Made by a program: the position numbers and the translations under genes. From assembly GCF_000320405.1 (NCBI RefSeq), contig NZ_KB291650.1:124001-188000 (forward strand): a stretch of DNA of 64,000 nt, read 5' to 3'. The first letter of the stretch is position 1. Each line of letters starts with the position of its first letter. The notes under the pieces were generated by a model, which saw only the letters and a list, made by a program, of their open reading frames with translations, was not told the origin of the DNA and did not search any database. Below are positions 11,586-38,600 of this stretch, piece after piece. The stretch is from Clostridium celatum DSM 1785. Its GTDB lineage: Bacteria; Bacillota; Clostridia; Clostridiales; Clostridiaceae.

Positions 11586-13382
11586 ATGATATATGGAAAT
11601 ATAGATGGAGTTAAAAAGTCAGCTTTAGAAGAGTTAGAAGCTCTTTATAAGGCAAAATGTCCTAAAGATGAAGTATGCTCTTTAAATATAATAGAAACAA
11701 TATCTAGAGTTTCAGCATTTATTGAAAGAGAAGTAAGTGTGGCTATAGATAGAAGAGGAAATATAAGAAGTATTGCAATAGGTGACTCAACATCAGTTGA
11801 AATTGAAACATTAGATATAAGAGAAAAAAAATTAGCAGGTGTTAGGATAATTCATACTCATCCTAATGGAATGAGTAACCTATCTGCCCTTGATATAAGT
11901 GCATTATTAAAGCTAAAATTAGATGCTATTGTAGCAATTGGAATTTATGAAGGAAAAATTTTAGATTGTTCATTAGGTCTTTTAACTGTATTAGATGATA
12001 AGTTAGATTATGAAGAAATACAAAATATAGCTTTAGAAGATTTAAGTAAGATTCATATATTAAATAAAATAAATTATATTGATTCTCTAATAAAGGAGAA
12101 AGATATAATTGAAGATGAGGGCGAAAAAGCTATTTTGGTAGGTTCAGATACAAGAGAAAGCCTAGAAGAATTAAAGGAATTAACTAAAGCTTGTGATATA
12201 CCAGTACTTGAAAGTGTTTATCAAAGCAGAAGTAAAATTGATGCAGCATTTTATATAGGAAGAGGAAAGGTTCTTGAAATTGCTCAACTTAGACAAAAAT
12301 TAAGAGCAAATGTAATTATATTTGATGATGAACTTTCGGGATCACAAGTTAGAAATCTTGAAGCAGCAATAGGAGCTAAAGTAATTGATAGAACAACGCT
12401 TATACTTGAAATATTTGCAAGAAGAGCGAAGAGTAGAGAAGCTAAAATACAAGTAGAACTTGCTCAACTTAAATATAGAATGAGTAGACTTCAAGGGCTT
12501 GGAACTATTATGTCTAGAACTGGTGGTGGTATTGGTACTAGAGGCCCAGGTGAAAAGAAGTTAGAAACAGATAGAAGACATATAAAAGAAGAAATCTATG
12601 ATTTAAATGATGAACTTAAAAAAATTAAAAAGATAAGAGAAACTCAAAGAGAAAAGAGAAATAAAGAAAGTATTCCAAAAGTATCATTAGTTGGATATAC
12701 TAATGCGGGAAAATCTACTTTAAGAAATGCCCTTTGTGATGTTGCTGCACAAAAGGAAGTTATAGGTAAGGAAAAAGTATTTGAAGCAGATATGCTTTTT
12801 GCTACCTTAGATATAACAACTAGAGCTATAGTGCTTAAAAACAAAGGTGTAATAACATTAACAGATACAGTAGGATTTGTTAGAAAATTACCTCATGATT
12901 TAGTTGAAGCATTTAAATCAACACTAGAGGAAGTAATATACTCTGATCTTTTATGTCATGTCGTTGATACTTCAAGTGATACTGCATTAGAACAAATAAA
13001 AGCAGTAGAGGAAGTGTTGTTTGAATTAGGAGCAAAAGATAAGGATACTATTTTAGTATTAAATAAAATTGATAAAGCTACAGAAGAACAAATAGCAACT
13101 GTTAAAGAAGCAACAGCTGAGTATAATACTATTGAAATTTCAGCTAGAGAAGGAATAAATTTAAATGAACTTCTAAATTTAATTGAAGAAAACTTACCTT
13201 ATAATATGAAAAAATGTGAATTCTTAATACCATATGATAAAAGTGATATATCATCATTCTTGCATAGAAATGGAAGAGTATTAGAAGAAGATTATAGGGA
13301 AAATGGAACTTTTATGATTGTTGAAGTAGATGATGAAAGTTATAATAAAACTAAAGATTATATTGTAAATATAATAGCATAA
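11586..13382 (+). CDS. hflX: GTPase HflX with N-terminal JAMM-like extension
   Basis: 598-residue ribosome-associated GTPase; HflX splits stalled or hibernating ribosomes under stress. The canonical part starts near residue 185: an HflX N-terminal domain, the TGGGIGTRGPGEKKLETDRR segment near 320, then the G domain with GYTNAGKST (370-378), DTVGF and NKID. The first 180 residues are extra compared with Escherichia coli HflX. They contain HTHP..S..D (His90, His92, Ser100, Asp103), matching the JAMM metalloprotease spacing, with Glu47 or Glu49 as possible catalytic acid. Start: ATG with GAGGTG upstream. Monocistronic, with a strong terminator. Whether the extension is active is unknown. Confidence 0.93.
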   Translation: MIYGNIDGVKKSALEELEALYKAKCPKDEVCSLNIIETISRVSAFIEREVSVAIDRRGNIRSIAIGDSTSVEIETLDIREKKLAGVRIIHTHPNGMSNLSALDISALLKLKLDAIVAIGIYEGKILDCSLGLLTVLDDKLDYEEIQNIALEDLSKIHILNKINYIDSLIKEKDIIEDEGEKAILVGSDTRESLEELKELTKACDIPVLESVYQSRSKIDAAFYIGRGKVLEIAQLRQKLRANVIIFDDELSGSQVRNLEAAIGAKVIDRTTLILEIFARRAKSREAKIQVELAQLKYRMSRLQGLGTIMSRTGGGIGTRGPGEKKLETDRRHIKEEIYDLNDELKKIKKIRETQREKRNKESIPKVSLVGYTNAGKSTLRNALCDVAAQKEVIGKEKVFEADMLFATLDITTRAIVLKNKGVITLTDTVGFVRKLPHDLVEAFKSTLEEVIYSDLLCHVVDTSSDTALEQIKAVEEVLFELGAKDKDTILVLNKIDKATEEQIATVKEATAEYNTIEISAREGINLNELLNLIEENLPYNMKKCEFLIPYDKSDISSFLHRNGRVLEEDYRENGTFMIVEVDDESYNKTKDYIVNIIA

Positions 13383-13425
13383 TAAAAATACTCCTTAAAA
13401 TAAATTGTTTTAAGGAGTATTTTTA
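13383..13425 (+). terminator. hflX terminator
   Basis: Perfect 18-bp stem (13383-13400 with 13408-13425) and a 7-nt loop, right after the stop codon, with flanking T/A runs. Confidence 0.9.
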
Positions 13426-13625
13426 TTAATATATATAAGATTTAATTAAAGTAATTTTATATATTTAATTTCAATTGAATATCATGAAGAAAAAGATAGG
13501 ACATTTTTATAAAATAAAGGATAAAATATTTATAATTGAAAAAAATAATCTTATCCGAATATTAAAAATAGATTTATATTAAGGTTAATTTAATTGTATT
13601 TTTATTTAAATAACAAAATAATATA

Positions 13626-13655
13626 TTGTACTATATAAAATAAATCTGATATTAT
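13626..13655 (+). promoter_or_regulatory. Possible promoter of the APC permease
   Basis: TTGTAC (13626-13631), 18-bp spacer, TATTAT (13650-13655), about 50 bp before the permease start. The match is moderate in a very AT-rich background. Confidence 0.4.
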
Positions 13656-13704
13656 ATAGTATGACGTAATTTGTCGAAATAAATAAAACAAAGGAGAAAA
13701 ACAA

Positions 13705-15198
13705 ATGAGTAAACAAAACAAAGGAAAAATGACTTTGATAGCCTTAATACTTATGATTTTTACGTCTGTATTTGGGTTTAATAATATTCCAAGAGCATTC
13801 TTTCTTATGGGATATTCAGCTATTCCATGGTATATATTTGGTGCAATAGCATTCTTTATACCATATGCATTTATGATGGCAGAATTTGGAGCTGCATATA
13901 AGGAAGAAAAAGGTGGAATTTATTCTTGGATGGAGAACTCAGTTGGAAGAAAGTTTGCATTCATAGGAACTTTCATGTGGTTTACATCTTATATTGTATG
14001 GATGGTAAGTGTTTCTTCATCAATATGGGTTCCACTTTCAAATTTAATTTTTGGTGTTGATAAAACATCAACATGGGAAATGTTTGGATTGAGCTCTACG
14101 CAAACATTAGGTATTTTAGGTGCAATTTTTGTTATATTAATAACATTCTTATCATCAAAGGGAATGAGTAGTATATCAAAGGTTGCATCTGTTGGTGGAA
14201 TTTTTGTAACTAGTGCCAATGTATTATTAATAGTAGGATCATTAATAGTATTTTTTGCCAATGGATTTAAAGCAGCACAACCATTAAACTTAGCACAATT
14301 TACACATTCACCAAATCCAGCTTATGGATCAGTTTTAGCAGTATTAGGATTTTTAGTTTTTGCTATATTTGCATATGGTGGATTAGAGGCAGTTGGAGGT
14401 CTTGTTGACCAAACTGAAAATGCTAATGTAACATTCCCTAGAGGAATTAAAATATCAGCAATAGTTATTGGTGTTGGATATTCTTTAGCGATATTAATGG
14501 TAGGATTATTTACAAATTGGGATGCAGTACTTTCATCACCAGATGTTAGAATGGCTAACGTTTCTTATGTAGTAATTAAAAATCTTGGAGTTGAACTTGG
14601 AAAAGTATTTGGACTTTCACAAGCAGGAATAGAAATAATGGGAACTTGGTTTGCTAGATATATAGGTTTAGCTATGTTTTTAGCATTACTTGGAGCATTC
14701 TTTACATTAATTTACTCACCACTTAAGCAATTAATTGAAGGAACACCAAAAGAAATTTGGCCAAAGAAATGGACTGAATTAAATGAAAATAACATGCCTG
14801 TAAGAGCTATGTGGGTTCAATGTATAACAGTTGTTGCTATTATAATGATTGCAGTGTTAACAAGTGGTAAATCTACAATGTTCTTAGATTATTTAATACT
14901 TATGGGTAATGTTTCTATGACTATACCTACAGTTTTCTTAGCTATAGCATTTATATATTTTAAGAAAAATGATAATATTAAAAAACCATTCATATTCTTT
15001 AAGAGTAAGACAATGGCTACATTCTGGGCCGTAGTTGTAATAGTTACAGTTGGATTTGCAAACATATTTACAATAATACAACCAGCAATTGAAAGTAAGG
15101 ATTATATTTCAACTGGTTTCCAATTAGCTGGACCTATAGTATTTGGAATAATTGCATTTATATTAATAACTATATATGAAAGAAAATATAGTTATTAA
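13705..15198 (+). CDS. yjeM: APC-superfamily amino acid permease (YjeM/glutamate:GABA antiporter-like)
   Basis: 497-residue inner-membrane transporter with about 12 hydrophobic helices. The N-terminal helix (LIALILMIFTSVFGFNNIPRAF) matches the unwound TM1 region of APC carriers, and FAIFAYGGLEAVGGLVDQTENA corresponds to TM6 of the YjeM/GadC group. The family exchanges or imports amino acids such as glutamate; the actual substrate is not determined by sequence. Start: ATG after an AAAGGAG site. It stands alone between hflX and a small unknown gene and has its own terminator. Confidence 0.85.
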   Translation: MSKQNKGKMTLIALILMIFTSVFGFNNIPRAFFLMGYSAIPWYIFGAIAFFIPYAFMMAEFGAAYKEEKGGIYSWMENSVGRKFAFIGTFMWFTSYIVWMVSVSSSIWVPLSNLIFGVDKTSTWEMFGLSSTQTLGILGAIFVILITFLSSKGMSSISKVASVGGIFVTSANVLLIVGSLIVFFANGFKAAQPLNLAQFTHSPNPAYGSVLAVLGFLVFAIFAYGGLEAVGGLVDQTENANVTFPRGIKISAIVIGVGYSLAILMVGLFTNWDAVLSSPDVRMANVSYVVIKNLGVELGKVFGLSQAGIEIMGTWFARYIGLAMFLALLGAFFTLIYSPLKQLIEGTPKEIWPKKWTELNENNMPVRAMWVQCITVVAIIMIAVLTSGKSTMFLDYLILMGNVSMTIPTVFLAIAFIYFKKNDNIKKPFIFFKSKTMATFWAVVVIVTVGFANIFTIIQPAIESKDYISTGFQLAGPIVFGIIAFILITIYERKYSY

Positions 15199-15228
15199 TA
15201 ATTAGAAATAAAACTTAAAGTGTGATGT

Positions 15229-15261
15229 AAATGACTCTATGCAATTTGTATGGAGTCATTT
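15229..15261 (+). terminator. Terminator after the APC permease
   Basis: 9-bp stem AAATGACTC/GAGTCATTT (15229-15237 with 15253-15261), followed by a T tract. Confidence 0.75.
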
Positions 15262-15325
15262 TTATTTATATGATAGGATATAAGGAGATTAAAAATTTTA
15301 ATATAGAGTGTACTAGGAGGAAGAA

Positions 15326-15520
15326 ATGATTAGTAAAAAACAATTAAAAGATGATATTATAACTTATGATATTATAACTTATACAGATGAAGATGGGAAG
15401 TTTATAGAATATGTAGAAGTTACTTTGGTTGATAGAATAATTGATGTATATATGGATACTAGAGAAGTTAATATAGGGTTAATTGCAAATAAAATAATAG
15501 AAGATAACTTATATAAATAA
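15326..15520 (+). CDS. Small acidic protein of unknown function
   Basis: 64-residue protein starting at an ATG seven bases after a perfect AGGAGG. No membrane segment, signal peptide or known domain is visible. Residues 10-19 read DIITYDIITY because of a perfect 15-bp tandem duplication (15353-15367 and 15368-15382), apparently a recent slippage event. The ribosome binding site and the terminator directly downstream support a real, separately transcribed gene. Function not recognised. Confidence 0.65.
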   Translation: MISKKQLKDDIITYDIITYTDEDGKFIEYVEVTLVDRIIDVYMDTREVNIGLIANKIIEDNLYK

Positions 15521-15539
15521 TAACTAAATTATAATAAGT

Positions 15540-15580
15540 GTGATGATATAATATTTCAAAAATAATATATCATCACTTTT
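15540..15580 (+). terminator. Terminator of the 64-residue gene
   Basis: 11-bp perfect stem (15540-15550 with 15566-15576) followed by TTTTT, 20 bp after the stop codon. Confidence 0.8.
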
Positions 15581-15683
15581 TGTTTATACTTAAAATTTAT
15601 TTAAGTTATATTTAGTACTTGCATTAGTTTGGAGGTAATTTCAGTTAAATAAATTAGTGGTGAGATATTTAGATTAATTTTAT

Positions 15684-16546
15684 TTATAAATTACTAAATG
15701 GAATAGAATCCATTTTAAATCGGCTCTTATTATTTTTATTTAATATAATAAGAAATAGTAGAGTAAAACTTATACCTAAAATTATAAAAAGCACATAAGT
15801 TAATATTGAATTTATATTTTTAGGTAAAAAATTGAATACTATTATAGCTGTTAAATTGTTAGAGATATGAGCAATAATAGATGAATAAAGTGATTTTGTT
15901 TTATAAATTAAATAACCAAAAACAATTCCTAAAAATGTAGTATAAATACATTGAATAATATTACCATGACATATGCCAAATAAAAATGCTTGTATAAAAA
16001 TTGTGGGTAATATAGGAAAACTTTTTAGAAGTGTATTATATACTAAACCTCTAAACAAAAGCTCTTCAGCAATAGGTGTTATTATACCAATAATTAATAT
16101 AGTTTCAGGTAAACCTCTTATTGTTAAAATATTGATTATACTATTGAAATTTTCCAAAATATTAGAAAAGAAAGTAGATGAATTCAAAATTCCTAAGAAG
16201 CCTATGTTAATACATAATATAGATACTCCTAAAAAACAGTCAGTAATAAAGTGTTTTTATTGGTATTTATTAGTGAAATATCTACAGTGATTTTTTTACC
16301 ATGAATATAATAAATAATAGCAATGGTGATAAAAAATATAACATATGCAATTAAATTTATATAAAGAATATTTTCTATAGCAACATTATTGAGAATGTTT
16401 GGTAAATTTAAAATGGAAGATTTATTGTAGATTAATAAATACAGTGTATATATAATTTCATATAAAATAACTGTTAATATTTGAATTAAAAATATAAATA
16501 AAATATAGAGTATAACTGTAAAAATATTTTTTATTTTTTCTTTCAT
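15684..16546 (-). pseudogene. CPBP-family intramembrane protease, split by a one-base frameshift
   Basis: Two minus-strand frames (start to about 16231, then to 15684) together make one complete CPBP (CAAX protease/bacteriocin-processing) membrane protein. The N-terminal part has transmembrane helices. The C-terminal part has the EELLFRG metal/catalytic motif, FGICHGN and HISNN. The break is at a run of six A on the plus strand (16231-16236; T on the coding strand). Adding one base restores a 287-residue protein, since 863 + 1 is divisible by 3. The start at 16546 follows AGGAGGT. It could be a pseudogene, a homopolymer phase switch or a sequencing error. Confidence 0.75.
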
Positions 16547-20008: not shown

Positions 20009-20749
20009 ATGTCAGGACATTCAAAATGGCATAATATACAAAACAAAAAAGGTAAAGCTGATGCAAAAAGAGGGAAGATCTTTACTAAAATAGGTAGAGA
20101 GTTAATGATAGCTGTTAAAAATGGAGGACCAGATCCTGATAACAACCCTAAATTAAGAGATGCAATAGCAAAAGCAAAAGCAGCTAACATGCCAAATGAT
20201 ACAGTTCAAAGATCTATAAAGAAAGCTTCAGGAGAGCTTGGTGCAGTAGATTATGAAAGAATAGTATATGAAGGATATGGACCATCAGGTGTTGCTGTTA
20301 TAGTTGATACTTTAACTGATAATAAAAATAGATCAGCAGGTAATGTAAGAAGTGCTTTCACTAAAGGCGGTGGAAATATGGGAACTACAGGATGTGTAGG
20401 ATTCATGTTCCAAGAAAAAGGTGAAATTGTTATAGAAAAGGGAGACCTTGATGAAGAAGAATTAATGATGATGGCTTTAGATGCAGGAGCTGAAGATTTC
20501 AATAGTGATGAAGAAGAAGTATTCATAATTACAACTGAACCAGATGATTTTGGAACAGTAAGAGAAGCTTTAGAAGCAGAAGGATTAGAATTCTTAGAAG
20601 CAGCAGTTAAAATGATTCCAGATACATATACTGAAATTGATGAAGATGCAGCAAAGAAATTCCAAAAAATGTTAGATTTACTTGAGGATGATGATGATGT
20701 TCAGGAAGTTTACCACAATGCTGAATTCCCAGAAGGATGGGATGAATAA
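20009..20749 (+). CDS. yebC: YebC/PmpR family protein (translation factor/transcriptional regulator)
   Basis: 246-residue cytoplasmic protein of normal family length. The N-terminus [20 protein letters not shown] is the YebC signature, followed by the central [16 protein letters not shown] region and an acidic C-terminal domain. YebC proteins have been linked to transcription regulation and, more recently, to relief of ribosome stalling at proline stretches. Start ATG after AGGAGG. The last 18 codons form the left copy of a 56-bp repeat that recurs at 24374-24429. An integrative element has inserted here and supplied a replacement 3' end, without changing the encoded peptide. Confidence 0.95.
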
Positions 20750-20750
20750 T
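20695..20750. repeat. Left att repeat (attL), yebC 3' end
   Basis: 51 of 56 bases match 24374-24429. The five differences are all at third codon positions and leave the peptide [17 protein letters not shown] and its stop unchanged. Confidence 0.88.
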
Positions 20751-20956
20751 CCTGTTAAATGCAGTAATATTCAGTGTTAGCAGTGTTTTTACAATATGTT
20801 TTACAGAAGGTAAAAGTAATATGAAGTAGGTAAAAATCCTATTCATTATGATAAATGTTAACAAAAAGCATAGTTTTCACTATGATGTTCATTTATAAGC
20901 TACTTTTCAAAGCAGATTAACAGATAATTTGTTTTTGAAAGGTGGCTTTTTTATTT

Positions 20957-21871
20957 ATGTTAGTAGATGATATTGTAAAAGAATTTATTTTTGAATTACA
21001 GGTGCAGAATTATACACCTAGAACAATAAAGGGGTATAAGAACAATATTTTAAAGTTTATGGAATACTGTAAACAAGAATTTGAAATTTTTGAATTAGAG
21101 GAAATAAACCATATCCATATTAAAAAGTATTTTCAGTATTTATTAAGTAAAGGAAGAAGTTCTGTTTATGTAAATAATATATTAAAGAATATAAGGGCAT
21201 TTTTTAAGTATTGCTATAAGGAAGAATATATAAACAGAAATATAGCTTTAAAAGTAGAATGGCAAAGGGAAAAAAGAACAGTAATTAAAACTTTTAATGA
21301 TGATGAAGTACAGGGGATGCTAGGGGTGTACACCTATAAGAATTATCTTGAAACAAGGAATAAATGTATAATGGCAGTTTTATTTGATACAGGAATTAGA
21401 AACCTTGAACTTTGTACATTAGGTATGTTAGATATAAAGGATACTGTTATTTATATTAAAGGTAAAGGAAGAAAGGAAAGGGTAGTTCCAATAAGTCCAA
21501 TGCTTAAAAAGATAATGATAAGATATGAAAGAGCAAGAGAAGAATACATTAAAGATAGTATTATAAAGGATGATGCCTATTTCTTATCATATAGGGGTAA
21601 AAGAATGACAGGTGAAGCAGTTGAAAGAATAGTAAAGATTTGTGGCAAGGAAGCTAAAATAAGAAGTGAAATAAGATGTTCACCACATACTTGCAGACAT
21701 TATTTTGCACAAGCACAATTAAGAAATGGATTAGATGTTTATTCATTAAGCAGATTATTAGGACATGAAAATATAAGTATAACAAAAAGATATTTACAGG
21801 GATTAGAAGATAGAAATATTGTTGAAATAAGTGTTAAAACAAGTCCATTAATGAATTTAAGAATTAAATAA
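20957..21871 (+). CDS. Tyrosine recombinase/integrase of the yebC element
   Basis: 304-residue site-specific recombinase expected to integrate and excise the element at yebC. The N-terminal SAM-like core-binding domain is at about 1-100. The catalytic domain carries the full set: Arg148 (GIRNLEL), Lys170 (KGKGRK), His244 and Arg247 (HTCRH), His270 (GHENI) and Tyr279 (KRYLQ). ATG 20957 is preferred over the in-frame GTG 20942, because AAAGGTGG (20938-20945) gives correct spacing to the ATG. It lies next to the left att site, as is usual. No separate excisionase was identified. Confidence 0.93.
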   Translation: MLVDDIVKEFIFELQVQNYTPRTIKGYKNNILKFMEYCKQEFEIFELEEINHIHIKKYFQYLLSKGRSSVYVNNILKNIRAFFKYCYKEEYINRNIALKVEWQREKRTVIKTFNDDEVQGMLGVYTYKNYLETRNKCIMAVLFDTGIRNLELCTLGMLDIKDTVIYIKGKGRKERVVPISPMLKKIMIRYERAREEYIKDSIIKDDAYFLSYRGKRMTGEAVERIVKICGKEAKIRSEIRCSPHTCRHYFAQAQLRNGLDVYSLSRLLGHENISITKRYLQGLEDRNIVEISVKTSPLMNLRIK

Positions 21872-21882
21872 AATAGTATTTA

Positions 21883-21912
21883 GGCAATGAATTAAGTTTC
21901 ATTGTCTTTTTT
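21883..21912 (+). terminator. Integrase terminator
   Basis: 9-bp stem with one G-U pair (21883-21891 with 21898-21906), followed by TTTTTT. Confidence 0.8.
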
Positions 21913-22013
21913 ATGTCACAAATTTATAGCATCAAGTAACTTATCTTTATGTAAAAGGTAGTCACAGTTATTTAAGGTCTTTGAACCTAAATCTATGTAG
22001 GGGGATGAAAGAT

Positions 22014-22139
22014 ATGAAGTTAGTTCATGTAATTGATATAGAAAATGAAATAATATTAGATGTTTATTTTGTTGATGAACAAACAGGTATAAGAATTGAT
22101 TATAGTGTTGAGGAATTTTTAAAAAGTATTAAACAATAA
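22014..22139 (+). CDS. 41-residue acidic protein in the yebC element
   Basis: ATG 22014 lies eight or nine bases after AGGGGG and opens 41 codons: MKLVHVIDIENEIILD, then YFVDEQTGIRIDYSVEEF, ending SIKQ. An alternative in-frame ATG at 22005 is too close to the ribosome binding site. No domain is recognised and the beta-rich pattern is unlike typical excisionases. The gene sits 20 bp before the winged-helix gene, probably in the same transcript. Function unknown. Confidence 0.6.
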   Translation: MKLVHVIDIENEIILDVYFVDEQTGIRIDYSVEEFLKSIKQ

Positions 22140-22159
22140 GTATAGTGGAGGGTTTATAA

Positions 22160-22711
22160 ATGGAAAAGGTGTTGTATTTAGAACAAGGTGAAAAATATAG
22201 TGATAGACAAGAAGGGTATTTTATGGTTCCTAATTGGTTATTTGATGAAGGTGAACATATTGAATTAGATGTTTATGAAAGAATGGCACTGATATATATT
22301 ATTAGGTGTGTTAATAAAAAAGATAATAGTCAAGGTATGGGTGATATTTTCTTTTTATCAGCAGAGCAGTTAGCAAAGAGGGGGAATTTTTCATTAGGAA
22401 AAGCAAAGAAAGTATTAAAAAGATTACAGGAACATGGATATATCAAAAAAATAAGAACAGGAAATAACTTAATAAAACAAGCAAATTCTTATAAAGTTAT
22501 GAACTTACAACCAACATATATACAAGGTTTGAAAATTTCATTAAGTGAAGCAGAAAAGAATTTATCAGAGGAAGAATTTAATGAATTATTAATTAAAGGA
22601 AAAGGGAGTATTTATTACTATGAAGATGAAGAAAAATATTCACATAGAAAATCATTGCCACTATTAGTAAATACTAATAATGGAAAAATTGGTTGTTTTG
22701 TTGATATTTAA
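22160..22711 (+). CDS. Winged-helix (HTH_36-like) protein, possible replication or regulatory protein
   Basis: 183-residue protein. The N-terminal part (about 15-115) reads as a winged helix: YFMVPNWLFDE..., LDVYERMALIYIIRC and FFLSAEQLAKRGNFSLGKAKKVLKRLQEHGYIKKIR. This pattern occurs in phage and plasmid replication-initiation proteins and in HTH_36 proteins. The C-terminal about 60 residues are charged and unrecognised. ATG follows GGAGGG. The gene could initiate element replication or regulate the integrase or cargo; neither is shown by sequence alone. Confidence 0.7.
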   Translation: MEKVLYLEQGEKYSDRQEGYFMVPNWLFDEGEHIELDVYERMALIYIIRCVNKKDNSQGMGDIFFLSAEQLAKRGNFSLGKAKKVLKRLQEHGYIKKIRTGNNLIKQANSYKVMNLQPTYIQGLKISLSEAEKNLSEEEFNELLIKGKGSIYYYEDEEKYSHRKSLPLLVNTNNGKIGCFVDI

Positions 22712-23079
22712 ATAAATTGAACAATGATATATAAGTATATTAAGAATGGTATAAATTATAATTACTAAGATTTAGTGTAATTTAAATAGTCACTACATGT
22801 ACTCTATAAAGAACTATAATACAAAGAACATAAATAAAGAAATAATTAAGGAAGAAGTATTTGCATTAATTTCATTAATGGCAACAAAGTATATATTTTT
22901 TTATTAGTTTATAAGACATAATGAAACATAATATAAAACAAAATAATATGTGAATTGTGATATTATAAGATTTTAATAAGAGTATTGAAATATAGATGTT
23001 GCAATATAAAGATTTGTAGTGTAGTGATATATTAATGTGTTATAATATAACTGAGTTACATAATAATGGAGGGTGAAAT
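22712..23079. other. 368-bp gene-free interval inside the yebC element
   Basis: AT-rich, with no terminator hairpin after the winged-helix gene that I can support. A TATAAT (23041-23046) about 35 bp before the DUF262 start may be its -10 box, but no good -35 sits at normal spacing. A 36-codon frame at 22797-22907 has no ribosome binding site. Confidence 0.5.
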
Positions 23080-24243
23080 ATGGCACTTATAATACCAGAG
23101 GATGCTGTTAAGCAAGTTAAAAGTAAAAAGATGAGTAATGCAGATTGGAGTGTAAAATCTAATACATCCACTTACAATTTATCATCAATAAAAGAATTAA
23201 TAGAAAAGGGAGAAAAAGGGGAAGCTGGAGGTATAAAATTAAAACCTTTCTATCAAAGGGATTATAAATTCAATGAAGAAGATGAAAGTTTATTAATGGA
23301 ATCAATATTATTAGGAATTCCAATTCCAACAATATATACTGCTTCTAATTCTAGAAGTAATATACATTATTTTAATGTAATTGATGGACAACACAGACTG
23401 AGAGCTGTTTATAGATTCTTATGTGGTAAGTATAGACTTAAGGGATTAGAACATTTACAAGAATATAATAATATGAAGTTTGAAGATTTACCAACAGAAA
23501 TAAAAAATGAGCTTAATTTTCAGAAGACATTAGTTATTGAGAATATACATGTACAAAATAATCCAGAGCTAGAATGGGAAATATTTAAAAGATATAATAG
23601 AGGTGGAAACCCATTAACTGGACAAGAAATGAGAGGAATAGTATTTGCATCAGAATTTGATTCATGGGTTCAAAAGTATTTAGAGGAAATTAGAAATGAA
23701 TCTTTAGTAAAGAATGTAATGAATATTTCTAATAGTAGATTCCAAAATAAAACAATACATGAGGAGTTCTATGTGTTTTTAGGTTTATATGAATATGGAG
23801 TTAATGATGACTTTTATTCCTCATCTAATTATGCAGATAAATTTATGGAAGAAGTATCTATGTTAGATTATTCAACTTCTCAATCAGCAATTAACTTAGC
23901 TAAAACAACATTTGAAGATTTTTTAAATATGCTAGATTGTGTTTACTGTAAGAGGGGGATTCAATATCCATTATCCAAGGAAATATATAAAAATGTTGAT
24001 AAAAAGAACTATAAGTGTCAAGTAAGTATTTTAATGATTTTAACAATAGTATATAAGTATATTCAGAGTAGTGGAATTGATTATAGAATAGATAAATATT
24101 CAAATATAATATTCAATGCTATAAAAACAGGATTTACTAAAGGGGATTTTGAAAAGACTAATGCATCAACAACCAGACCAACAATTATTAGAAGCACTTC
24201 AAATTTAATAGTTGAAATAATAAAAAAAGAAATAAGTCTCTAA
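23080..24243 (+). CDS. Stand-alone DUF262 protein (GmrSD N-terminal/ParB-like fold), candidate defence cargo
   Basis: 387-residue cytoplasmic protein. The DUF262 core is clear: FYQRDYKF (Gln59-Arg60), the ESILLGIPIPTIY helix and strand, VIDGQHRLRAVYRFL (DGQHR 102-106), and YNRGGNPLTGQEMR near residue 175. The C-terminal half (about 200-387) is helical and unrecognised. It lacks the DUF1524 HNH nuclease domain that accompanies DUF262 in GmrSD and BrxU restriction enzymes. DUF262 proteins use NTP-dependent ParB/Srx-like chemistry and are frequent in antiphage loci. A defence role here is inference from family and from the mobile element. ATG after GGAGGG. Confidence 0.85.
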   Translation: MALIIPEDAVKQVKSKKMSNADWSVKSNTSTYNLSSIKELIEKGEKGEAGGIKLKPFYQRDYKFNEEDESLLMESILLGIPIPTIYTASNSRSNIHYFNVIDGQHRLRAVYRFLCGKYRLKGLEHLQEYNNMKFEDLPTEIKNELNFQKTLVIENIHVQNNPELEWEIFKRYNRGGNPLTGQEMRGIVFASEFDSWVQKYLEEIRNESLVKNVMNISNSRFQNKTIHEEFYVFLGLYEYGVNDDFYSSSNYADKFMEEVSMLDYSTSQSAINLAKTTFEDFLNMLDCVYCKRGIQYPLSKEIYKNVDKKNYKCQVSILMILTIVYKYIQSSGIDYRIDKYSNIIFNAIKTGFTKGDFEKTNASTTRPTIIRSTSNLIVEIIKKEISL

Positions 24244-24373
24244 ATATTGCCTATATTATAATATAATAATTATGTTTTTACTTATGTTTTTAGTTAAGGT
24301 AACTGTTAATATGCTTTGAAATTAAAAGTAGGCATAAACCTAGTAAAATATAGATTATAACTTTAAAGAACTG

Positions 24374-24429
24374 TGATGTTCAAGAAGTCTACCACAATGC
24401 AGAATTCCCTGAAGGTTGGGATGAATAAT
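24374..24429. repeat. Right att repeat (attR), second copy of the yebC 3' end
   Basis: Encodes the same 17 codons and stop as the yebC terminus, with five silent third-position changes. It is followed by the ancestral yebC terminator. Confidence 0.88.
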
Positions 24430-24467
24430 ATTTAATAAAATTTTAATATAAATCATTAAATAAGATG

Positions 24468-24531
24468 TCTATTAGTTATAACATAATTTTGTAATATGTT
24501 ACAAAAAGAACATAACTAATAGATGTTTTAT
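24468..24531 (+). terminator. Ancestral yebC terminator, displaced by the element
   Basis: 12-bp stem (24468-24479 with 24512-24523) with an internal smaller hairpin, followed by TGTTTTA and nine T. It lies 39 bp after the duplicated yebC stop codon, which is the normal distance for yebC's own terminator. Confidence 0.75.
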
Positions 24532-24622
24532 TTTTTTTTATAATGTATTTGAAAAAATAGTTTGATTATGAATTTTGTATTAGTAATTTAGAGAAAATAG
24601 GAATAGAACATATAATTTAAGA

Positions 24623-24652
24623 AAGGACAATCCTTTAAAAGGGATTGTCCTT
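24623..24652 (-). terminator. queT terminator
   Basis: 11-bp stem AAGGACAATCC/GGATTGTCCTT (24623-24633 with 24642-24652), directly after the queT stop codon on the minus strand. Confidence 0.8.
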
Positions 24653-24656
24653 AAAT

Positions 24657-25157
24657 TTATTTCATCGTTATTGCCTTTTTAAATCTTGAACCAGCTGCTA
24701 AGAATAATGGCACTCCTATAATTGTAATTACTACGAATTCTCCAACTGCAACTTCACCTATAGTAAGCCAAAGTGGTAATGCATATAATTTATTTAACAT
24801 TAGTCCTATAATAATACCATTAAATATTGTTGGCCAAATAGAAGCTATTAATAATTTAACTTTGTAATTTTTTATGATTTTACCTGTTAAATAAATTGCA
24901 TAAACGCTTATAAAAGTAGCTAATGTACCAAAAATTACATCCATTGGACCATTTGGGCCTAAGAGATTTGCAATTAAGCATCCAAGTGTTAATCCTCCTA
25001 TATATAGTGGATCAAATAATGCAAGTAATACTAACACTTCAGAAACTCTAAATTGAATATTCCCATAAGCAAATGGTGCAATTACCAGAGTAACTACTGC
25101 ATAGATTGCTGCAATTATTGCAGTTCTAGTAAGTCTTTTTGTTAAATTGTTTTTCAT
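24657..25157 (-). CDS. queT: QueT family transporter (queuosine-precursor ECF substrate-binding subunit)
   Basis: 166-residue membrane protein with about five hydrophobic helices, the S-component of an energy-coupling-factor importer for queuosine precursors. The family segment AYGNIQFRVSEVLVLLALF and the GLTLGCLIANLLGPNGPMDVIFGT stretch are both present. The shared ECF module is not in this window. The gene has its own promoter, a preQ1-type leader and an AGGAGG site. It connects with tgt and queA at 31-33 kb, which use the imported precursor to modify tRNA. Confidence 0.93.
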   Translation of the reverse strand: MKNNLTKRLTRTAIIAAIYAVVTLVIAPFAYGNIQFRVSEVLVLLALFDPLYIGGLTLGCLIANLLGPNGPMDVIFGTLATFISVYAIYLTGKIIKNYKVKLLIASIWPTIFNGIIIGLMLNKLYALPLWLTIGEVAVGEFVVITIIGVPLFLAAGSRFKKAITMK

Positions 25158-35685: not shown

Positions 35686-38600
35686 ATGAAAAGTAAAAGA
35701 TTGATAGCTTTGGTTATTGCAGCTACAATGACTACAGGACTAGCTACATTTCCTACAGAATCTGTAAAAGCAGAGAAAGCGTTAAATGTTGTTATAAGTG
35801 AAATTTATGGTGGCGGAGGTAATACTGGTGCCACATTAAAAAATGATTTCATTGAATTATATAATCCTACGGGAGAAGAAATAGATATTACTGGTTGGAA
35901 GGTTCAATATGCTTCTAAAACAGGTGAATTTGGAAAGAATGAAACTGAACTTACAGGTAAAATAAAAGCCGGTGGTTATTATCTTATAAAGCAAGCAGCC
36001 GGAAGTAATGGAACTGAAGAACTAGAGCATTATGATGCTGAAGGCAATATAGCGATGGCTGGAGCTGAATGTAAGGTAAGAATAGTTAATGCTAATAATG
36101 AAGTAATTGACCTTGTTGGTGTTGGATCATCAGCAAATCTTTCGGAAACAGCTCCAACAGTAGCTATGTCTAGTACTACTAGTGTACAACGTAGAGATAA
36201 TTTAGGTGGAGAATCTGGTGAAACAAATGGTTGGGACACAAATAATAATAGTGCAGATTTTTATGCAGCAGAGCCAACACCAAGAAGTTCTATGTATGAA
36301 GTTGAAGAAGAAATTGAAGGTGTAACTTCTATTAAAAATGCTAGAGAATTAGCAGATAAAGAAGAAGTAACAATAAGAGGGGTAGTTTCATTTAATGACA
36401 GAAATCAAACTCTTCATATTCAAGATAAGTCAGGAGCAATAGCTATTTCTAATTATTCTAGTAAAATAGATTTTTCTCAAATAGTTGTTGGTGATGAAGT
36501 GGAAATTACAGGAACATTAGATACATTTAATAAGTTACGTCAAGTACAGGCTACAGAGTTAGAGGTTATAGCAAAGAAAACTGCACCTACTCCGAAAGAA
36601 GTAACTATAAAAGAGTTAAAAGAAAAAAATTATGATTCATATTATGTTGAAATTAAAGGTGCAGTATTAGATACAACAGCAAAAACATTAACTCAAGGTG
36701 ATAATGTTTTAGATATATACTTCATTCCATCAGGATTAGAAGTACAAACTGGAGATACAGTGGATGTAGTAGGAACAGTTGGGAGATATGGTGATACTGT
36801 TCAAATTTATGGTTCATCTTGTACATTTACAAAAGTAGAAGTAGAAACACCAGATGTTCCAGAAGAACCAGAAGTTGATAAAGTTGGACCAACTATAGTT
36901 AAGGTTACTCCAGGGAACTCAGCAAATGTAGGAGATAACAGAAGACCAGAAATAACAGCTACATTTGAAGATGAATCAGGTGTAGACATGGAAAGTGTTA
37001 AAATGGTGTTTGATGGAAAAGATATTACATCTGCTTTAGTTAAAGAAGAAAACACTGTTAAATATACAGTTAGTGAAGACTTAGAAGATGGAAGACATAC
37101 TGTTAAGGTTGAAGTAAAAGATACTTTAGGTAATATAACTACAAAAGAATGGAGATTTACTGTAGGAAAGCAAGAAACTAATCTTTACTTTGGACAACTT
37201 CACTCACATACAAATTTATCAGATGGGCAAGGAACTATAGATGAAGCTTATACTTATGCTAAAAATATTGCAGGAGTAGATTTCGTAGCTGTTACTGACC
37301 ATAGTAACTGGTTTGATAATGATACAGCTGCTAATATGGGAGATGGTTCTGCAAGTGAGGAGTGGCAATTAGGATTAGCTACAGCAGATAAATATAACAA
37401 AGATGGTGAATTTACTGCTATTTATGGATATGAAATGACTTGGTCAGGTTCAACAGGTGGATATGGTCACATAAATACTTTTAATACACCAGGATTTGAA
37501 ACTAGAACAAATAAAAATATGAATTTAAAGAATTACTATGAAACTTTAAAGCAGTACCCAGAATCTTTATCTCAATTAAATCACCCAGGAAAAACTTTTG
37601 GTAACTTCTCAGATTATGCTCATTATGATGCAGCAATAGATGAAGTTGTTACATTAATAGAAGTTGGTAATGGTGAAGGTGCCATAAGAAGTTCAGGATA
37701 TTTCCCATCATATGAAGAGTACACAAGAGCTCTTGATAAAGGATGGCATGTATCACCTACAAATAACCAAGATAATCATAAAGGTAAATGGGGTAATGCT
37801 AATACTGCAAGAACAGTTGTTGAAGCGTCAGAACTTACAAGAGAAGCTATTTATGAAGCTATAAGTGAAAGAAGAACTTATGCAACAGAGGATGAAAATT
37901 TAAGAATTTCATATACTGTAAATGGAAATCCAATGGGATCTATATTAGATGATACAGGTTCTTTAGAATTTAATATTAGCGTTGAAGATATTGATAGTGG
38001 AGATAATATCAAAAAGATATCTATTATTGGAGATGGTGGTAAGGTTGTAAAATCAATAGATAATATAAATTCTACAACTAAGGATTGGTCATTTACTTTA
38101 GATAATAATGTAAGTTCATACTATTATGTAAGAGTTGATCAAGCTGACCAAGATATTGCCGTAACTGCACCAGTATGGGTTGGAGAAAGAGAAAATGTTG
38201 GAATAGAGTCAATTGATTGTGATACAGAACTTGTAGTAGAAAATGAAGAAATAAGCATTGATACAACTGTTTACAATAATGAAGCTACAGAATTAACAGA
38301 TGTTAAAGTTGAATATTATGTTGATGGAGCTACTGATCCAGAAGTAGTTACTATTGAAAAGATAGAATCTGCTACAGCAGGAAAAGCAACGTTTACTCAT
38401 AGATTTGAAAAAGCTGGAGAACATAAAATTGATGTAGTAGTTAAAGCAAATATCAATGGAAATGAAAGAGAATTTAAAGGAAGTATAGAGATAAAAGTAT
38501 CTAAGGCAAGTGCAGTTTCTAAGGTTGTCATTGATGGAGCTCATCAAAATCAATATGTTAGTGGAGATTATTCAGGAAAAATAACTACACTTACAGGTTT

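Follow-up and report, generated by a model that had tools for sequence, protein, structure and literature searches.

Within a 64-kb window of the Clostridium celatum DSM 1785 genome (the whole stretch of DNA that was analysed; the source genome comprises 3.55 Mb over 121 contigs), an element of 3.68 kb lies between two copies of a direct repeat at the 3' end of the yebC gene. We consider it very probable that this is a compact integrative element of a family of yebC-specific tyrosine integrases, which docks at a TGGG motif, carries a hairpin in front of its integrase gene and has exchangeable cargo. The features of the region are as follows.

20009..20749, + strand: yebC (YebC/TACO1 family; Pfam 6.8e-65 and 4.7e-33), the target gene, intact
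20695..20750, + strand: left repeat copy (side of the left attachment site, attL), end of the working yebC, with host alleles at -40, -28, -19 and -13
20738..20741, + strand (right counterpart 24417-24420): TGGG, inferred strand-exchange interval, bracketed by the window and genome G046
20897..20948, + strand: terminator-like hairpin followed by a T run, with the integrase Shine-Dalgarno sequence AAAGGTGG in its 3' arm
20957..21871, + strand: tyrosine integrase of the yebC-targeting family (Pfam Phage_integrase, E 1.2e-29)
22014..22139, + strand: open reading frame (ORF) of 41 residues, conserved between the integrase and winged-helix genes in the two closest elements
22160..22711, + strand: winged-helix protein (PHROGs 8.1e-11 and 1.1e-10; Pfam DnaD_N below cut-off)
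23080..24243, + strand: cargo, a lone DUF262 (GmrSD_N) protein (Pfam 1.1e-20; PADLOC NsnA 1.1e-40 and PD-T4-2_A 9.3e-17)
24374..24429, + strand: right repeat copy (attR side), apparently element-borne up to TGG, then the old last codons of the host
24458-24533, + strand: hairpin, presumed old yebC terminator (-24.6 kcal/mol, z -5.6)

The two 56-bp copies shared 51 of 56 bases, as a preliminary description of this DNA had claimed, and the best other ungapped match of the 56-mer reached 31/56 in the window and 32/56 in one shuffled window. All five differences (at -46, -40, -28, -19 and -13, counted from the end of the stop codon) were silent third-position changes, again as described before; the chance of finding five out of five differences at third positions is p ~0.0025. 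An in-frame stop lies just 5' of the yebC piece in the right copy, which is therefore not translated. Second yebC tails were present in 18 elements, at distances of 3.46 to 36.8 kb from the first tail and with homologies of 40-414 bp. The 33 differences within these tail pairs consisted of 31 at third codon positions, at least two of them changing Asp to Glu (L029, L056) and the others, as far as they were read, being silent, and two TAA/TGA changes of the stop codon. Most loci lacking a second tail had at most ~11 kb of downstream sequence, and in genome G187 no second tail occurred within ~17 kb. At locus L143 (G056:C202), a stretch of 414 bp matching codons ~107-246 of yebC and ending near 38237 makes up the right repeat; it shows third-position differences only and extends far beyond the presumed need of an integrase.

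The hairpin reported beyond the right copy proved to be a strong structure (z -5.6), which is presumed to be the old yebC terminator, stranded beyond the element. A simple terminator scan did not list it, and its comparison with the region after yebC in a genome with an empty site (G059) gave a weak gapped alignment. Searching positions 20600-24700 for known RNA families yielded two sub-threshold chance matches and nothing else.

The integrase contains all six catalytic residues that had been assigned to it (R147, K169, H243, R246, H269 and Y278), and these were invariant in alignments of 11 and 17 rows. Matches at E <=1e-40 were present in 14 of 68 genomes of the genus, including that of C. 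celatum itself. A scan of a named collection with an alignment returned 40 loci, 32 of them at >=39% identity and eight below 30%. In 29 of these 32 loci, yebC was located 118-458 bp upstream on the same strand, whereas none of the eight loci below 30% identity had yebC as a neighbour; the remaining three of the 32 either follow htpG (L050) or begin at contig ends (L061, L066). The hosts include Clostridium, Tepidibacter, Sedimentibacter, Intestinimonas, Oscillibacter, Acetanaerobacterium and a Lachnospiraceae metagenome-assembled genome (MAG), among others. In a class-wide sample of 391 genomes we obtained 43 matches, of which the top four (E <=1.3e-134) were all behind yebC, followed by a sharp gap (next E 1e-56 and weaker); none of the 26 weaker loci examined, out of 39, had yebC within the available stretch (which in L113 includes little upstream sequence). 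In a family-level set of 206 genomes, 28 contained matches, 30 in all: 22 of these followed a full yebC and two a bare yebC tail, three were located elsewhere (G479, G032, G046:C1) and one was cut by a contig end (G488), with the matches in G472 and G557 left out of the neighbour assignment.

In a tree of 54 recombinases, all 34 yebC-linked integrases fell into one clade of 41 rows (support 99/96). The window integrase belongs to this clade, with yebC directly upstream on the same strand and a second tail at the far end of the element. Of the remaining seven, four stem from viral records that break off at or close to the integrase, and three, nested inside the clade, have different genes next to them. 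Together with an empty site in a relative (see below), this family-wide preference bears out the proposal that the 3' end of yebC serves as the bacterial attachment site (attB). We encountered neither an unrelated duplicated yebC gene nor another consistent target without yebC repeats, the two findings that the preliminary description had named as arguing against itself. Among the family integrases that do not follow yebC, L208 (G479) is located behind efp (Pfam), L050 behind htpG (Pfam HSP90), L016 (G032) 3' of a T-box-like leader recognised by eye, and L019/L032 (G046:C1) behind an amidase ORF; these locations probably reflect retargeting. Distantly related tyrosine recombinases also occur immediately after yebC in the opposite orientation (L185 in G016, L089 in G032), and because of this position a second recombinase family may use the same dock.

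Genome G059 represents the empty site sought among the relatives: yebC is followed there by the 5'-nucleotidase gene that lies to the right of the element in the window. The queT gene (24657-25157) is situated between the element and the 5'-nucleotidase gene in the window and beyond the latter in G008 and G039, which appears to be a local rearrangement. Five other genomes contain yebC genes with 94-95% DNA identity to that of the window. Among 65 Clostridium genomes with yebC, 11 carried a full family integrase behind it and six a broken or contig-cut one (G008, G028, G038, G039, G048, G053), the downstream stretches surveyed ranging from 320 to 3951 bases. In G485, a second tail lies 39.5 kb beyond yebC, then comes an integrase and, 9.5 kb further on, a third tail; the region (G485:C1, ~61.0-110.0 kb; L203, L217, L218, L220) contains one yebC, two extra tails and two family integrases and probably consists of two elements in tandem. 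An integrase behind a bare yebC tail was also present in G481, and both cases suggest that tandem arrays occur.

The integrase was 97% identical to its counterpart in C. sardiniense (locus L033). In terms of DNA identity, the two species share 94.6% over the integrase gene, 82.0% over yebC and 85.3% over the winged-helix gene, and the window DUF262 gene has no match in the L033 locus. Because the integrase is so much better conserved than yebC and the DUF262 gene is absent from L033, these values indicate horizontal transfer with exchange of cargo.

In site-specific recombination, the left copy of a repeat represents host sequence up to the point of exchange and the right copy host sequence after it. 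The left copy of the window showed the allele of all five closest genomes (yebC 93.8-95.3% identical) at -40, -28, -19 and -13. Similarly, the left copy of G002 agreed with G012 (yebC 98.4% identical) at -61, -58 and -40, and G003 agreed at two of these three positions. At position -8 of G046, seven of seven relatives side with the right copy, so that the left one is foreign there; position -9 is mixed. The yebC gene of this genome (L009/L023) ends in GWSF instead of GWDE, and GWDE is kept in the right copy; here an element has imported a non-silent change. Support from the 3' side was weaker for G007 (at -7, four of seven relatives) and G026 (at -1, four of seven), and is thus uneven across genomes. 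Because the left copy is host-like at -13 in the window and foreign at -8 in G046, the exchange can be bracketed to positions -12 to -9, the TGGG of the last Trp codon. Since the translated yebC keeps host alleles down to -13, only its last two or three codons appear to be replaced. The earlier idea that the element replaces the end of the gene therefore holds for these last codons, but not for the rest of the left copy, which carries the alleles of the five closest genomes. A crossover at the 5' end of the repeat is ruled out for the window by the host alleles at -40, -28, -19 and -13, and is further contradicted by the 5' edge of homology, which varies from -42 to -408 across the tail pairs, while the 3' edge stays near the stop codon (-9 to +6).

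Over 43 bp, the element-borne half of the right copy showed a single mismatch to yebC in G035 and two to yebC in G043. This agrees with the previous suggestion that the att half derives from the yebC of another host, although the deviant sequence resides in the right, untranslated copy and not in the coding end as had been assumed. Because it is untranslated yet has diverged purely silently, the right-copy half was apparently part of a working yebC until recently. We infer that it was captured from, or converted by, the yebC of a former host.

The left arm of the element in the window folds better than all 200 shuffled versions (z -3.4), and a stem of at least 12 pairs with a T run abutting the integrase start was present in 42 of 50 family members. 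Because the stem was chosen as the best one within ~110 bases, pairing itself is not evidence. Other gene starts (n=336) and other tyrosine recombinases (n=27) were scored identically as controls. The stem was found in 20 of 26 family members, compared with 5/336 control starts and 1/27 other tyrosine recombinases, and the Shine-Dalgarno sequence was part of a stem arm in 17/26, 0/336 and 1/27 cases, respectively. The proposed function of the hairpin is twofold, to replace the terminator of yebC and to lock integrase translation from read-through transcripts. Of 48 genomes that lack a family integrase, 10 have a similar hairpin-like arm within 400 bases of yebC, judged by pattern only and without shuffled controls, G011 and G013 being doubtful cases. 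We read these arms as probable left-end scars of decayed elements; those in G004, G012, G017, G029, G037, G045, G047 and G064, where no integrase was detectable, are possible domesticated terminators. As a tentative extension, the hairpin might be regarded as a safe-docking device, which terminates yebC and hides the ribosome-binding site of the integrase, keeps the element silent exactly when it is docked behind an active gene and is left behind by decayed elements as yebC terminator, with prophages, satellites and mini defence islands sharing the dock, sometimes in tandem.

All four genes described between the repeat copies, coding for the integrase, a 41-residue product, a winged-helix protein and a DUF262 protein, were confirmed. 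The 41-codon ORF is 63% identical in C. sardiniense and 41% in a MAG, and our guess is that it codes for a recombination directionality factor. The winged-helix protein shows weak likeness to phage replication-initiation proteins and to the N-terminal domains of DnaD-like helicase loaders; its AlphaFold2 model has a mean predicted local distance difference test score (pLDDT) of 54.6, with the highest values in the winged-helix core. It had no match among the viral contigs searched, and beyond the window and C. sardiniense the 68 Clostridium genomes yielded weak matches only, mostly in ORFs of more than 500 residues and once in an ORF of 165 residues on the contig of the G057 element. For the DUF262 protein, there was no match in NCBIfam and none in a sequence search against solved structures. 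By Pfam, the DUF1524 domain (GmrD) is absent from the four element ORFs, and with it the fused or adjacent pair of GmrS and GmrD that defines the GmrSD type IV restriction system. By its domain matches, the DUF262 cargo most likely protects against phages.

The chassis of integrase, 41-residue ORF and winged-helix gene is common to the window element, L033 of C. sardiniense and L034 of the MAG (on the same contig as L201). In L033, the cargo comprises a protein with a RelA/SpoT domain (PADLOC candidate PDC-S33) plus another ORF that matched no family, and in L034 NADAR and PRTase-CE proteins, both above the curated cut-offs of NCBIfam for the anti-phage system DS32. Thus, the compact elements have exchangeable cargo which, where recognisable, has a known or likely anti-phage role. 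The available main text of PMC13092281 does not mention DS-32 or DUF262.

According to the mechanism we propose, the integrase would join the circular attachment site (attP) to the 3' end of yebC, with strands being exchanged in the last Trp codon (TGGG). The body of yebC would be kept, and its last two or three codons, the stop codon and a new terminator would be supplied by the element. Because the descending arm of this terminator is also the integrase ribosome-binding site, read-through from yebC should end soon after entering the element and should not give rise to integrase protein. As its att half, the element would store, at its right end, the copied yebC tail of a former host. Following excision, replication of the circle would probably be aided by the winged-helix protein, and transfer would be passive or depend on a helper, either a phage or a conjugative element. 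Exchangeable cargo, here the DUF262 gene, would occupy the slot that separates the winged-helix gene from the right att site. Of this scheme, comparison between genomes demonstrates the target, the ends, the horizontal transfer, the crossover interval in Trp-bearing hosts, the conservation of the hairpin and the exchange of cargo.

Several observations weigh against this reading in one or another of its parts. At -46 the right copy has the common base, and the base of the left copy is without parallel in the seven nearest yebC genes. The copies differ silently 5' of the exchange point, in a part that simple site-specific recombination should never return to a reading frame; therefore, capture or gene conversion must be assumed as an extra process. 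Moreover, the right copies of the window and C. sardiniense differ by three silent changes in the supposedly element-borne half. The TGGG rule is limited to Trp-bearing hosts, because G051 and G138 have no Trp codon at that site and the tails of G485 differ there. Not all family members have yebC as their target: htpG and efp are used as well, and in two cases the target is unclear. As for the hairpin, one Oscillospiraceae subclade of seven members has the T run only in L053, the other six (L051, L052, L054, L055, L056 and L058) lacking it; it is also missing in L059, and L106 has a short stem only. Finally, in four Oscillospiraceae elements (L046, L051, L053, L056), only a WYL regulator matched PADLOC among the 10 of 29 non-integrase ORFs scanned, the defence scan having excluded the larger elements L022, L024, L025, L029, L042, L047 and L054. 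With this single match in 10 proteins of larger relatives, defence cargo as a family-wide rule is unsupported.

A duplicated yebC end or a misassembly, which the repeat alone would permit, can practically be dismissed, as the arrangement recurs with 18 tail pairs at loci of different genomes and G059 displays the empty site. It is a serious possibility, if somewhat short of an even chance, that the element is a phage satellite, packaged as a mini-element by a helper phage. Integrases and att sites of the same kind occur in a 12.1-kb relative from C. saudiense with a small terminase and in a 16.7-kb element of G051 with a large terminase and a major head protein (five proteins searched). Family integrases are also carried by prophage-sized viral records, one of 34 kb, each end of which matches the C-terminal part of YebC (weakly at the second, E 0.003), and one of 30.9 kb whose integrase shows zero distance to the G002 integrase, and the winged-helix gene resembles phage replication initiators. 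However, no terminase, capsid, packaging or interference genes were recognised in the 3.68 kb by Pfam and PHROGs, no helper is known, and viral contigs yielded no match to the winged-helix protein.

An integrative mobilisable element (IME), moved in trans by a conjugative element, appears unlikely. The window element has an integrase and att sites of its own, as required of an IME, and some reviewed IMEs combine tyrosine integrases for housekeeping-gene 3' ends with a replisome organiser (available part of PMC5704250), but no relaxase or mobilisation gene matched among the four ORFs in Pfam, PHROGs and NCBIfam (an origin of transfer alone was not sought). We regard a decayed relic of a larger prophage, now immobile, as less probable still. 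The broken or contig-cut integrases behind yebC in six genomes and the hairpin-like patterns in 10 of 48 genomes would be in line with such decay, but none of the four reading frames is interrupted, integrase identity to C. sardiniense reaches 97% compared with only 82% for the DNA of yebC, and the same compact layout recurs in three genomes, each time with other cargo.

Compared to known systems, the element shows both parallels and differences. The prophages e14 and 21 of icd likewise replace the 3' end of their target gene by a homologous one with mostly silent changes; there, the deviant copy forms the coding end over a long stretch, whereas in the window the replacement is confined to the last two or three codons. 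In IS10 and IS200, RNA structures hide the ribosome-binding site of the transposase against outside transcription. Host read-through would similarly not be translatable as recombinase in the window, the difference being that a single hairpin would act as both terminator of the target gene and lock on the ribosome-binding site, and in an integrase family. The C. saudiense relative combines this kind of integrase with a small terminase like phage-inducible chromosomal islands (PICI), although small terminase or interference genes were not recognised in the window element and the likeness of its winged-helix protein to replication proteins is weak. The efp product has a role related to that of YebC, and the location of one relative behind the functionally related efp may be due to chance.

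YebC has recently been described as an enhancer of the translation of proline-rich stretches (available part of PMC12234827). Insertion by tyrosine integrases into the 3' ends of housekeeping genes is well known: as far as the available part of the review PMC5704250 goes, IMEs, integrative and conjugative elements and prophages use those of guaA, rpsI, rplL, rpmE, rpmG and trmE, and the word yebC is absent from it. The window element resembles these elements in its single, end-located tyrosine integrase, the direct repeat preserving the gene end, the small cargo and, as in some of them, a replication-type accessory gene; it differs in its very small size and in that no mobilisation gene was found. 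It shares with P4-like satellites, which carry anti-phage hotspots (available part of PMC9122126), the small integrated form and an exchangeable defence slot, but hosts, integrase and target are others and no P4-type genes were recognised in it. In searches of the open-access literature, a scope outside which most subscription papers and preprints fall, we found neither an integrase with such a hairpin nor yebC as an integration site, the latter including the available parts of PMC13092281, PMC4398514, PMC5883640 and PMC5704250.

The yebC end thus appears as a protein-gene att site common to mini-elements, satellite-like and prophage-sized elements of several Clostridia families, which should allow such elements to be delimited exactly in many genomes. 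A chassis of ~3.7-4.4 kb with one cargo slot, holding known or candidate anti-phage genes in three close cases, may offer a route to new defence genes, and the hairpin suggests a rule, open to testing, by which an integrase gene located behind an active host gene is kept silent. A different type of cargo is indicated in one of the larger relatives, the [Clostridium] viride element (L042, ~11800-16000), which by eye looks as though it contained an arsenic-type cluster; in keeping with such a cluster, two of its proteins match the Pfam families SBF (transporter) and LMWPc (phosphatase).

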